Part shown: piece after piece, positions 625 through 14,676 of the stretch | Position numbering within the stretch: the first letter of the stretch is position 1 | Layout: each line of letters begins with the position of its first letter | Source: a virus | Length of the DNA: 20,677 bases | Virus record (IMG/VR): IMGVR_UViG_3300032267_000411 | Span: 1-20,677 of that record | Strand: one strand, 5' to 3' | The notes under the pieces: model-generated | What the model saw: the letters and a program-made list of their open reading frames with translations, nothing else | Told to the model about the DNA's origin: nothing | Databases searched by the model: none | Made by a program: the position numbers and the translations under genes

Positions 625-848
625 CCCGCAAGCAACCAAACTCTTGGCGTTCGCTGAACAGGCGCCTGAACGCCATGACCGAAGACGAAGTGAAGGCAGC
701 GCTTGTTGCCGAAATAGACGGCGAACGCCGCGTCACTGTCGTTGAAAGACTGCACCAGCGCTTCAGTGCGCTGCGTGCAACCCGAGAGCGCCTAGAACTG
801 ATGACGGAGATACAACGTGAGGCTGCACAACCCATTCCGAACCCCTAG
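621..848 (+). CDS. Small phage protein of unknown function (75 aa)
   Basis: I do not recognise this protein. It begins at ATG 621, overlapping the helicase stop (622-624) as ATGA. A longer reading from about 519 would lie inside the conserved end of the helicase and is rejected. The 75 residues are charged and probably helical: a basic N-terminus (MTRKQPNSWRSLNRRLN), an acidic patch (TEDEVKAALVAEIDGE), then a run of Arg, Glu and Leu. There is no membrane segment or metal motif. A helical DNA- or protein-binding accessory factor is possible, but nothing in the sequence proves it. The tight coupling to the helicase suggests joint expression in the replication arm. Confidence 0.7.
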   Translation: MTRKQPNSWRSLNRRLNAMTEDEVKAALVAEIDGERRVTVVERLHQRFSALRATRERLELMTEIQREAAQPIPNP

Positions 849-1014
849 CCCCGAAGAACTTATCGCCCGCGAGCTGGACCAAGCGCGGCGCGGCCTGCTG
901 GAAGCGCAGACCGGGCGCGACTACGCAAACGCGATGGTGCTCTACCATGAGACGCGCATCGACCGGCTGCGCACGCAACTGGAAATGATGACGCAGCAGG
1001 AGGTTACCGCTTGA
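817..1014 (+). CDS. Small helical phage protein of unknown function (65 aa)
   Basis: This frame starts at GTG 817, overlapping the end of the previous gene by 32 bases in another frame. A GGAG lies a suitable distance upstream, at about 804-807. The product is short and probably helical (PEELIARELDQARRGLLEA, then YHETRIDRLRTQLEMM), with heptad-like Leu spacing that could form a coiled coil. It resembles in style small conserved proteins often found next to replication genes in betaproteobacterial phages, but no function can be given. Its stop TGA overlaps the next gene's TTG start as TTGA. Confidence 0.65.
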   Translation: MRLHNPFRTPSPEELIARELDQARRGLLEAQTGRDYANAMVLYHETRIDRLRTQLEMMTQQEVTA

Positions 1015-1247
1015 AATGCCCGACTTGCGCGGCATGGACAGAAGTTCTACAGACCAGACAACGTGACGGATACACCTACAGGAGGTACACATGCGCGAAC
1101 AATCACCGCTTCAGCACCCAAGAATTCCCAACGGCTGCGACCAGCAAGGCCGCCACCCCCAAGCAGCCGAGTGCTGCACAGAACTTGGCCAAGAAGAACC
1201 GGAGTTTTACGGCTTTGATTTCTGGAAAGAAGAAGGCATCGCCCTGA
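1011..1247 (+). CDS. Small zinc-ribbon protein, NrdR-type N-terminal fold (78 aa)
   Basis: The N-terminus carries CPTC at residues 3-6, then TRQRDGYTYRRYTC and NHRF. Cys3, Cys6, Cys28 and probably His32 can bind one zinc. The pattern CPxC, TR, RRxxC, HRFxT is like the zinc ribbon that opens NrdR-type regulators, but the ATP-cone domain is absent. The C-terminal half is basic and low-complexity (Lys, Ala, Ser), suiting nucleic-acid binding. The start is TTG 1011, preceded by AGGAGG at about 999 and overlapping the preceding stop as TTGA. A role as a small DNA-binding regulator is plausible and unproven. Its second half is overlapped by another frame with its own strong ribosome site. Confidence 0.7.
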   Translation: MKCPTCAAWTEVLQTRQRDGYTYRRYTCANNHRFSTQEFPTAATSKAATPKQPSAAQNLAKKNRSFTALISGKKKASP

Positions 1248-1309
1248 TCGTTTTGGCCGTCGCGCTTGTGGCCATCATGGGCACTATGGTTGCGCTCTAC
1301 GCGACCTAA
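1091..1309 (+). CDS. Overlapping small membrane protein (72 aa), out of frame with the zinc-ribbon gene
   Basis: ATG 1091 is preceded by a near-perfect AGGAGG six bases upstream (1079-1084), inside the zinc-ribbon gene. The frame shares 157 bases with that gene and then continues alone to a TAA at 1307-1309. Residues 1-45 are polar and low in recognisable structure. Residues 48-72 form one clear transmembrane helix (IALIVLAVALVAIMGTMVAL), coded almost wholly beyond the other gene's stop. A single-pass membrane protein, oriented with a short or absent C-terminal tail, is expected. It could be a lysis-related or superinfection factor, but this is a guess. The alternative is that a shorter product starts internally. 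Confidence 0.55.
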   Translation: MREQSPLQHPRIPNGCDQQGRHPQAAECCTELGQEEPEFYGFDFWKEEGIALIVLAVALVAIMGTMVALYAT

Positions 1310-1668
1310 TAAGACCAGACCGTAGGGGCGGCGCGTAGGTCCAAATGGATGAACCGCCCCGCGCCCTTCTGCTGCACGCCGATGCCGGTGAAGCCTAGGT
1401 GCATCGCTAGGCGCAGCAGTTCATGGGCGTCAGCGCCTTGCACGCCGACGTCGCAGGCTAGGCCGGTGGAGTGCATACCCGGCTCGGCCTTGGCCTTCTC
1501 CACCGGGTGGTCAGGGCAGCGGTAGCCTGACGTGATGCTCATGGGGCGACGGTAGACGTCGCGCAGCGCCTGCAGACGCCCCATGAACTCGGGCTTCATC
1601 TCCTGCTTGCCGCAGTGGCGGCAGCGGAATTCGGCCTCGGTAAAGTTGGGGTAGTCGGCCCAGTTCAC
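1306..1668 (-). CDS. Endolysin: M15-family zinc peptidase (120 aa)
   Basis: This is a compact M15 (M15_3/D-Ala-D-Ala carboxypeptidase-like) metallopeptidase. Motifs in order are SGYRCPDHP (47-55), HSTGLACDVG (66-75) and FIHLDL (107-112). His66, Asp73 and His108 match the usual HxxGxAxD and HxD zinc ligands. The N-terminal NFTEAEFRCRHCGK adds a Cys pair typical of phage members. Known relatives cut peptide cross-links of peptidoglycan, so it is the best candidate for host lysis. There is no signal peptide, so it would need a holin. The start is GTG 1668, overlapping the holin stop as GTGA. It is the last gene of the leftward operon and overlaps the convergent plus-strand gene by 4 bases at the stop codons. 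Confidence 0.9.
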   Translation of the reverse strand: MNWADYPNFTEAEFRCRHCGKQEMKPEFMGRLQALRDVYRRPMSITSGYRCPDHPVEKAKAEPGMHSTGLACDVGVQGADAHELLRLAMHLGFTGIGVQQKGAGRFIHLDLRAAPTVWSY

Positions 1669-8785: not shown

Positions 8786-10015
8786 TTACAAAGCCGCGAA
8801 GGCAAACGTCAGCAATTGATCATAGCGCAGACCCAACCGAGGAGTCACAGTGCCATCGGCCAACTCAATATCATCGCTACAGAACAATCCGTACTTGTTT
8901 GCGTCAAGACCTTCTGCGGCAAATGCAGCGTAGACATCCTGCGCCATGACGCCGACGTGCGTGCGCGCCGCATCGCCTTTTAGGTCAACGGCGGAATTCC
9001 ACTTGAAGGTGCGGACTAAAGATTTGACGCGCTGCGCTACACGCCGCTCTGCGTCGGTCAGTTCTTGAATCTGCTGCTTTTCGGTGGCGTCAGACGTATT
9101 GATCGTACCTACGGCTGCGTAGACAGTACCCCAGCGTTGGCCACTAGTGCCCAAGTTGTAAGTGTTGTCAAGGAACGGGCGGAAGCCCGTAGCCTGCGTG
9201 ACCGTAATTCCGGTCGTGCCGATAGCTGTGACGACGCCATTGTCGCCAGCAACAAGAGCGAATCCACTGTCTTCTTTGTAGCGAGCTTCTTGCGCTGGAC
9301 CAGCAAGAAATTCGGTGGAGTACGTGGACGCCCAGCGTTGGCCACTAGTGCCCAAGTTGTAAGTGTTGCTGGCAAACGGACGGAAGCCGGTGGCCTGCGT
9401 GACTGTAACGACAGACCCACCAATGCCGGTAGTGACGCCGTTGTCGCCATCAACAACCGCAAAACCCGAGTCTTCTTTGAAACGCGCCTGCTGGGCTGAT
9501 CCAGCTAAAAATTCAGTGGAATATGTGGAGGCCCAACGTTGACCACTGGTGCCCAAGTTATAGGTGTTGCTGGCAAACGGACGGAAGCCCGTAGCCTGCG
9601 TGACCGTAATTCCGGTCGTGCCAATACCTGTGACTGCACCGTTCGTCCCCAGAAGCGTGACAAACCCGCTGTCTTCGGCCAGCGTGCCGTTGCGCACCCC
9701 CGTCGTTGCGCTTACGGTGTTCAGCCGGGTGACGAATGCGTTTTCCGAGTTCTGGTACGCAAACGTGCCAAAGATGACAGGTGGCTGCGTGCCGATCTCA
9801 GCGATGTTTGCAACTGCAGCTATTTCTGCGGTGTAATCAACCGGCGACGGAACTAACTGCAAATCTTCCAGCGTAGCGGCGCTTTGGCCGCTGCCTGTCA
9901 GCGTGAATAGGTTCAGCAAGAACCGATACCACTCACGCGAAATCAACCCCGTCCGTTCGTCAGTAAACGGCACACGCGGCGGCGTGATATTGGTAATGTT
10001 CGGCGGGCTGGTCAT
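8786..10015 (-). CDS. Tail fibre with three 67-residue repeats and C-terminal S74 chaperone domain (409 aa)
   Basis: The N-terminus (PPRVPFTDERTGLISREWYR) looks like a tail-attachment segment. Three repeats start with EDSGF at residues 114, 181 and 248, each containing TQATGFRPF and NTYNLGTSGQRW. The C-terminus is a Peptidase_S74 intramolecular chaperone: INTSDATEK (305-313) supplies Ser308 and Lys313, spaced as in the self-cleaving endosialidase chaperone, followed by RTHVGVMAQDVYAAF. In this family the domain helps three chains fold into a fibre and then cuts itself off. The gene follows the gp10-like hub and overlaps it as ATGA, in the slot where P22 has its tail needle. Confidence 0.9.
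   Translation of the reverse strand: MTSPPNITNITPPRVPFTDERTGLISREWYRFLLNLFTLTGSGQSAATLEDLQLVPSPVDYTAEIAAVANIAEIGTQPPVIFGTFAYQNSENAFVTRLNTVSATTGVRNGTLAEDSGFVTLLGTNGAVTGIGTTGITVTQATGFRPFASNTYNLGTSGQRWASTYSTEFLAGSAQQARFKEDSGFAVVDGDNGVTTGIGGSVVTVTQATGFRPFASNTYNLGTSGQRWASTYSTEFLAGPAQEARYKEDSGFALVAGDNGVVTAIGTTGITVTQATGFRPFLDNTYNLGTSGQRWGTVYAAVGTINTSDATEKQQIQELTDAERRVAQRVKSLVRTFKWNSAVDLKGDAARTHVGVMAQDVYAAFAAEGLDANKYGLFCSDDIELADGTVTPRLGLRYDQLLTFAFAAL
9104..9676 (-). repeat. Tandem 201-base repeats inside the S74 fibre gene (about 2.85 units)
   Basis: The string CCAGCGTTGG (plus-strand reading) recurs at 9131 and 9332, and as CCAACGTTGA at 9533, giving an exact 201-base period, or 67 codons. Units 1 and 2 by plus-strand order share a long identical block beginning at CCAGCGTTGG. 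Units 2 and 3 share GTTGCTGGCAAACGGACGG. Units 1 and 3 share CGTAGCCTGCGTGACCGTAA. Identity is therefore patchwork, as expected from internal recombination between units. The reading frame is kept throughout, so copy changes would lengthen or shorten the fibre shaft by fixed steps. Confidence 0.92.
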
Positions 10016-13473: not shown

Positions 13474-14676
13474 TCAGCCCCAGAGACGGCAGGCCATCTG
13501 CGGACGAATAGTGCTGAAACCATACAGCACGTCGATCCGGCAAGGCATGCGGTCGTTGTTGATGTCGTACTGACGCACGACGCGCAGGCTGATGCCATTG
13601 TGAACGGCACGCGCAGCCATGTCCACGCCTTGGGGCAGGAGCAGGTCAGCGGTGGCGAACGTGATGGCATCCTTGTGGTACACCAGGTTCTGAGCGTACT
13701 GCGTAGAGGCAGCACCCACGAACACCACAGCCTTGCTGGTAGCAGGCAGAGTGTTCACGGTAGCCAAAGCGCTGCTGGCCGAGTAGATCGGAGCCACGGT
13801 CACGGTAACGGCGGTGCCGCTGGCGGTGACGTCAGCCAGAACCACGAACTGGAACAGCGAGCCGGTGGACTCACGAGTCTGCGGGTTCACAGCGAAGCAG
13901 TCAGCCACGGTAAACACGTCGCCAGCCTTAATGGTGACGTTAGACGCCACGGTCAGTGCGATGGAGGTTGCGCCTTCAGCGGTAACCGCCGCAGAGGTGG
14001 TGTTGCCGGTAGCACCGCGCGAGCCGGTCGTGAACTGCTTGATTGACTGAGACATGTTGACTTCTTCGAAGCCAAGCACGCCAGTGCCCATCATGCCGTT
14101 CTTGAACTGCTTGCTGATGGTGTCGGTGGGATTGAACAGACCCTTCATGCCTTCCACCAAACCGGCGTTGGCAGCCGGGTTGACGGTAGCGTAGCGGGGC
14201 GACATCACAGCGGCGTTCTCGTTGAGCTTCTGCTGGGCTTGCAGCAGAACCAGCGAGGTGGCCGGCGTGGTGCCGGGGGTGCCCACGGAGTTACCGATGG
14301 TGCGGAAGGCGTTGGCGACGTCAGCATCGATGCTGGAGGCCAACTGGCTGATACGAGGCTTCAGCACACGGTCTGCAAAGTCGTCCAACTGCATCGTCAG
14401 TTCGGCGGACGTGAAGTTCACGCCGATGTGCTTTTGCGAGGCGACCGTCAGGGTCGTGAACTGCTCGTTGTCGTCCTGCACTTGCAGAGCGGCGCCGTCA
14501 GTCACCAGAGCGCGGTCCGGCAGGCGGATACGCAGCGTGGAGCCGATCTTGGCCCCTTCGACAGCGAAGCTGTCGTCGTACTGGCGGTTCACGTTGCGCG
14601 TGAGCACCAAGTTGTTTTCCAAGATCTCCAGGGCCTTCCTGGTGATCATGTCAATGGTCAGAATACTATTAGCCAC
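13474..14676 (-). CDS. Major capsid (coat) protein, P22 gp5-like fold (400 aa)
   Basis: The protein opens ANSILTIDMITRKALEILEN and carries KIGSTLRIRLPDRALV (43-58), then HIGVNFTSAELTMQLDDF. These are marks of the P22 coat-protein family, HK97-fold shells of podoviruses (P22 gp5 is 430 residues). A Thr/Val-rich region at about 220-320 (ATSIALTVASNVTIKAGDVF) fits an inserted beta-domain, as in the P22 I-domain. The C-terminus returns to conserved GVDMAARAVHNGISLRVVRQ. The start is GTG 14676 with GAAAGGA upstream; two TGA stops lie in tandem. Scaffold precedes it, as expected, and hairpins follow. Confidence 0.92.
   Translation of the reverse strand: MANSILTIDMITRKALEILENNLVLTRNVNRQYDDSFAVEGAKIGSTLRIRLPDRALVTDGAALQVQDDNEQFTTLTVASQKHIGVNFTSAELTMQLDDFADRVLKPRISQLASSIDADVANAFRTIGNSVGTPGTTPATSLVLLQAQQKLNENAAVMSPRYATVNPAANAGLVEGMKGLFNPTDTISKQFKNGMMGTGVLGFEEVNMSQSIKQFTTGSRGATGNTTSAAVTAEGATSIALTVASNVTIKAGDVFTVADCFAVNPQTRESTGSLFQFVVLADVTASGTAVTVTVAPIYSASSALATVNTLPATSKAVVFVGAASTQYAQNLVYHKDAITFATADLLLPQGVDMAARAVHNGISLRVVRQYDINNDRMPCRIDVLYGFSTIRPQMACRLWG

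Follow-up and report, generated by a model that had tools for sequence, protein, structure and literature searches.

The tat and rev genes of HIV overlap in a functionally segregated manner, with the key residues of each protein coming from different parts of the overlap, and among phages the lysis genes Rz and Rz1 are an embedded pair. Same-strand overlapping genes can form through loss of a stop codon and through an upstream shift of a start codon, routes a and b in PMC2268670.

The locus described here lies in a window of 20,677 bases, which is the whole of an IMG/VR virus record, and brings together a gene for an NrdR-like zinc ribbon (ZR) and a gene for a small membrane protein (TM) in another frame. 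As in tat/rev, ZR and TM draw their important residues from separate portions of the overlap; unlike tat/rev, the two genes lie in phage DNA, a single codon pair marks a clean switch between them, and there is a long passive tail. The pair recalls Rz/Rz1 in that TM is a small membrane-associated product begun out of frame within a phage gene near lysis genes, and it differs in that TM lacks a lipobox after a signal helix and its partner is a zinc ribbon rather than an Rz-like protein. As in the routes of PMC2268670, each of two neighbouring genes reaches into the other in a different frame, the start of TM lying upstream of those of its relatives and the stop of ZR downstream; the locus is unlike them in a junction that looks less like the outcome of point mutation than of recombination of unrelated genes, and in a shared start site within conserved zinc-ribbon codons.

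Our preferred reading, to which we assign a probability of about 0.88 on the basis of sequence comparison, is that ZR and TM are translated separately as two genes, that they end a rightward block and were fused by recombination, with constraint switching from one protein to the other at one codon pair.

Layout of the locus

The rightward block consists of the end of an SNF2-like helicase gene, two small genes, ZR, and TM. The small gene 5' of ZR (817–1014, plus strand, 65 aa) follows the helicase fragment and has relatives near TM in other contigs; its stop codon overlaps the TTG start of ZR (TTGA). Facing TM is a leftward block in which an M15 peptidase gene (1306–1668, minus strand; PF08291, E = 3.5e-15; phrog_894, endolysin, E = 7.1e-28) comes first, then a holin-like gene and virion genes; the stop region of the peptidase gene and the end of TM have 4 bases in common. 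A scan for terminators and promoters gave nothing that exceeded shuffled sequences. Elsewhere in the window, a tail-fibre-like ORF (8786–10015, minus strand) contains three near-repeats of ATGFRPFxxNTYNLGTSGQRW, and its C-terminus is reminiscent of the S74 chaperone domain.

ZR (1011–1247, plus strand) starts at TTG 1011, with an SD-like AGGAGG (998–1003) 7 bases 5' of it, and encodes 78 aa, namely a zinc ribbon in codons 1–38 and a run-on tail of 40 residues. Like NrdR, ZR carries the N-terminal zinc-ribbon domain of that repressor: PF22811 scores 24.3 bits against the whole ORF, below the cut-off of 27.2, and reaches 27.2 bits, exactly the cut-off, with the 38-aa domain only. All 13 zinc ribbons scanned match this family at E = 0.01 or better. 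Unlike in NrdR, a Pfam search with the complete 78-aa ORF found no ATP-cone domain. AlphaFold models ZR confidently over approximately residues 1–40, and the pLDDT is under 50 over most of the remainder, so that the tail is predicted to be disordered; the position of the ZR stop varies across overlap loci from +64 to +112 after CDQ.

TM (1091–1309, plus strand) starts at ATG 1091 and encodes a 72-aa protein in which the conserved segment RIPNGCDQQGRHPQAAECCTELG is followed by an acidic linker and by a single helix predicted to lie in the membrane. The initial annotation had described two out-of-frame genes, the second running on past the ZR stop into a transmembrane helix, and this description was borne out: both ORFs were confirmed, TM lies in the −1 frame relative to ZR, and in the AlphaFold model of TM residues 42–71 form a confidently predicted helix, around the hydrophobic segment of residues 50–72 (1238–1306). 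The ZR stop TGA (1245–1247) sits inside this segment, and the overlap therefore spans 1091–1247, 157 bases counting the ZR stop.

The membrane-protein family and its internal start

The conserved part of TM reads RIPxGCDQQGRxPQAAExCTELG (in the family, IPxGCDQQGRxPxAAExxTE) and is followed by the acidic linker and the helix, which varies between sublineages. An IMG/VR scan with a TM alignment gave 173 confirmed relatives, and 80 loci were kept for the counts, with 22 TM copies overlapping a zinc ribbon and 59 without an overlapping one. Together with the window, the overlap set comprises 23 loci of uncultured phages (17 unique sequences across the 99 bases compared). Many copies without ZR start with M(T)TSRIP, MKHPRIP, or the like, either at an ATGA where they overlap an unrelated gene or from an SD of their own. 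Copies without ZR do not have the leader of about 10 residues. Judged by these alignments, TM is a real conserved gene and not an ORF accident, because it is also found without ZR.

Matches to this family were sought in Pfam, PHROGs, PDB, and phage records. The TM protein of the window has no match at E = 1 among 50,697 phage records and none in Pfam, its best PHROG value is E = 0.14, and the TM profile finds no PDB chain at E = 1. Composite TM-family queries gave chance hits only in the phage records (E = 2 and 5), one of them matched DUF6480 weakly, under its cut-off, and four plasmid matches are weak (E = 0.5 or worse). Among 84,980 GTDB genomes there is one TM-matching contig, L132, labelled as an Anabaena MAG and probably a phage contig binned with its host. 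Among the papers searched, none mentions CDQQGR and none combines NrdR, zinc ribbon, and phage. The GCDQQGR membrane-protein family is thus, as defined by its sequence motif, conserved in phages and absent from Pfam, PHROGs, and the phage records searched. Its genes may be missed by gene callers that penalise overlaps.

The zinc-ribbon residues YRRYTC are encoded by TAC AGG AGG TAC ACA TGC (1077–1094), which include the SD-like AGGAGG (1080–1085) and ATG 1091–1093, so that these residues do encode the putative ribosome site of TM, as had been proposed. The same proposal placed AGGAGG six bases before the ATG; the site is there, and the spacer is five bases, TACAC, the sixth being the A of the start codon itself. 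This ATG straddles two zinc-ribbon codons, taking the third base of the first and the beginning of the next, a Cys codon. The TM frame has a TGA upstream (1064–1066) and no other ATG, GTG, or TTG before the conserved Cys16, which leaves 1091 as the one usual start from which a protein including the conserved part can be made.

The pattern AGGAGG-N4-9-ATG on its own is not significant in the window (0.55 expected; at least one in 43 of 100 shuffles), and the case therefore rests on comparison with relatives. The ATG is at the identical place in 23/23 overlap loci, the window included. In 82 unique zinc-ribbon cores, GGAG was scored in the codons 5' of the third Cys; it occurs in the Arg-Arg codons of 22/24 overlapping cores versus 1/58 others (p = 1.2e-16; the sequences being related, this and the other p values given here for GGAG and for constraint overstate the significance), and after clustering at 85% identity in 7/9 versus 1/43 (p = 2e-6). 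An ATG at the place of the TM start is found in 23/24 cores with TM in frame and in 11/58 without. Four rows with a degenerate TM (L154, L167, L179, L210) were recognised only after their SD and ORF had been seen; under a stricter definition, in which overlap means an intact CDxQGR and these four rows count as "other", the figures are 18/20 versus 5/62 for GGAG (p = 9e-12) and 20/20 versus 14/62 for ATG.

We also scanned IMG/VR in reverse, for zinc ribbons with SD and ATG and blind to what lies downstream. This gave 33 stretches (26 unique, many of their contigs already present in the earlier sets), with the TM family recognised in 18 by pattern and in 5 more by eye (L220, L224, L228, L232, L245), and with 3/26 lacking a TM-family ORF (L219, L237, L246). 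Among the matches listed, a TM-like ORF accompanies 13/16 sequences with GGAG and ATG versus 5/65 others, a control set that mixes loci chosen by their SD with loci from part of the matches. The ATG is kept and GGAG is absent in L102 and L107, and these two and L118 have an additional ATG directly 5' of GCDQQGR. No hairpin hiding the TM start was found; RNA there is weakly folded (z = +2.06, less than 196/200 shuffles).

Overall, the constant ATG and the enrichment of GGAG indicate that the inner gene has a translation start of its own and that this internal start is selected. A conserved protein motif of ZR would then serve also as a ribosome-binding site. Four loci (L140, L253, L260, L290) have unrelated short hydrophobic ORFs with a GTG start at the same Cys codon and no GGAG.

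Division of the shared bases and rival explanations

It had been suggested that about 157 bases code for two proteins and that both constraints act on the same bases, with a test of synonymous sites in both frames across relatives as the check. The length is correct, and parsimony counts over TM codons 2–33 in 20 unique sequences place the constraint on one protein at a time. In TM codons 2–10, which cover the zinc-ribbon motif CANNHRFST, the changes at ZR positions 3/1/2 number 23/8/7 (binomial p = 0.005) and thus fall at third positions of ZR; for TM codons 11–33 the numbers are 20/5/60 (p = 9e-6), at TM third positions, each such change altering a ZR residue. Pairwise comparisons agree: changes silent in TM and not in ZR occur at 0.51 times expectation in codons 2–10 and 3.2 times in codons 11–33, and changes silent in ZR and not in TM at 2.7 and 0.59 times, respectively. 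Codons 2–10 thus spare ZR and codons 11–33 spare TM, and no constraint on both proteins at once runs along codons 2–33.

Three parts of the overlap can accordingly be distinguished by substitution pattern. At 1091–1120 ZR is constrained, and TM residues 1–10 (MREQSPLQHP) are a variable leader. The junction (1121–1124), made of TM Arg11 (1121–1123) and ZR Glu38 (1122–1124), is invariant in 17/17 unique overlap sequences; the Arg11 codon ends in A in all 17, as ZR Glu38 (GAR) demands of the bases in common, and copies without ZR mostly use CGC (23/35). From 1125 to 1247 the constraint is on TM, with ZR continuing as a run-on tail free of constraint, the counts here being those of TM codons 11–33, to about 1189. 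Double constraint on the same bases, therefore, holds for the SD and start codons and for the Glu38/Arg11 pair and not elsewhere. For most of the bases in common, only one of the two genes seems to depend on the sequence.

Both frames are open and conserved in the sense that the ZR core and the TM motif are present in all 17 unique sequences, with TM open in 21/23 loci. When TM was recoded synonymously 20,000 times, a fraction of 0.889 of the versions kept the ZR frame open as far as the observed stop, because stops in this phase need xTG or xTA codons (Leu, Val, Ile, Met), and in 59/59 TM copies without the overlap the corresponding frame runs without a stop for 43 bases or more past CDQ. By these measures the ZR tail shows no sign of constraint, and the TM peptide by itself is enough to account for the open frame of the tail. 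A nucleotide-level element behind the TM motif was ruled out, since third positions vary freely in TM, also in the copies without ZR.

True dual coding, in which both proteins are constrained over all 157 bases and the ZR tail has a sequence-specific function, would account for a ZR frame that is open in 23/23 overlap loci and for the A-ending codons preferred in the overlap set (Glu31 GAA in 17/17 versus 16/41; Gln24 CAA in 13/15 versus 2/15). However, these preferences may reflect shared descent, the tail is variable in length besides its predicted disorder, and the open frame together with the variation of codons 11–33 at positions that always alter ZR makes this explanation improbable. Chance origin of the TM ORF, or its decay to a pseudogene in the overlap clade, is suggested by stops in 2/23 loci and a truncation in L228, but the other 21 are open, the third-position pattern of TM is that of purifying selection, and of the two contigs with a stop one (G008) has a second, intact TM copy, while the other (G004) is too short to show one at that distance; we hold this to be highly improbable.

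The −1 frame of TM would also fit a ZR–TM fusion made by frameshifting without a separate start. However, 19/23 loci, the window included, have no X-XXY-YYZ heptamer in the overlap, the only one being GGGCCCG in 4/23, a selected GGAG and ATG would be unnecessary for it, and TM copies without ZR have their own start; with the slippery site absent, we rejected this very unlikely possibility. Birth of TM de novo by overprinting inside ZR agrees with its first 10 residues, which are read from zinc-ribbon codons, but the remainder of TM is conserved in the 59 copies without an overlapping ZR, which lie behind unrelated genes. Overprinting is therefore contradicted for TM as a whole, for which we give it almost no credence, and is true of the leader only.

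Taken together, the preferred reading of two separately translated genes makes ZR/TM a clear natural case of overlapping genes forming and lasting without much conflict: the two abut at their informative ends, and each extends into the other as unconstrained filler. Relatives with and without the overlap provide comparisons that are seldom available for overlapping genes.

Origin of the overlap and deviating loci

One other junction bears on how the fusion arose. L220, with a ZR front and a TM lacking GCDQQGR, and L124, with a GCDQQGR-containing TM and no ZR, are 96% identical across 129 bases of the 3' part of TM and unalike just 5' of it. The L220 junction is at a different point and in a different TM sublineage from that of the window, and recombination is therefore favoured: it would have joined a zinc ribbon that already contained a start site to a membrane-protein gene beside lysis genes. 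A degenerate TM lies at the same place in L154, L179, and L167 (profile match probability 93 for L154), and L210 has one too (98). The zinc-ribbon tree, built on 38 columns only, has 4 label changes, at least 2 of them forced by well-supported branches, which fits either a single origin followed by losses or gain on several occasions.

We propose that recombination attached the 5' part of a zinc-ribbon gene to a TM gene that lay in another frame. ZR would then read on through TM as far as the hydrophobic segment, where xTG and xTA codons supply stops in the ZR frame, and TM would have acquired its leader of about 10 residues from zinc-ribbon codons. Ribosomes would start ZR at TTG 1011 and TM at ATG 1091, their passage through ZR probably helping the TM starts. 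More tentatively, and at somewhat less than even odds, the RRYxC of phage NrdR-like zinc ribbons may be a portable selected start module (AGGAGG in Arg-Arg, ATG(C) at Cys) that has been repeatedly recombined onto the membrane gene by the lysis cassette, tying the dose or timing of the latter to translation of a zinc-ribbon regulator.

A relative of the window M15 endolysin lies on the opposite strand just after TM in 17/22 overlap loci (E threshold 1e-4) and is also present in 18 of the other loci, counts that miss other endolysin types and include loci that end early. From its position against the convergent endolysin and holin genes, a role of TM in the envelope or in lysis timing can be guessed, which even within the main explanation we consider rather doubtful.

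Stops in the 1091 frame beside an intact zinc ribbon had been named as evidence against the inner gene, and two of the 23 overlap loci do have one: in L055 and L059 a TAA at TM residue 24 is silent in ZR, and the frame past it is open with a later ATG near the helix. The gene itself withstands this, being open in the other 21 loci and conserved without ZR. The L059 contig (G008) carries its second, intact TM copy at 13987–14145; G004 begins 535 bases before TM, so that a copy at a similar distance would fall off the contig. L228 encodes a shortened 40-aa TM product without the helix. These alignments show ZR persisting where TM is broken. TM from the internal site is not indispensable to every phage carrying ZR, given the stops in L055 and L059, the truncated L228, and L102 and L107 without GGAG.

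Phage DSL-LC05 (OR003940.1) has, without GenBank annotation, a zinc ribbon (L213:2995–3270) at the same genome point, whose tail reads antisense into the annotated holin gene of the opposite strand; this is what one would expect of a tail that simply takes up the downstream sequence. In other zinc-ribbon genes the tail shares bases with an unrelated coiled-coil-like ORF in a different frame (L013–L021, L155, L022–L024). In six loci (L103, L106, L111, L112, L114, L115) the zinc ribbon and TM are separate, more than 1 kb apart, with TM first. TM-family genes also occur as tandem pairs about 20 bases apart (L087–L089, L092–L096; G017, G019, G020), and in G008 the two copies lie about 800 bases apart.
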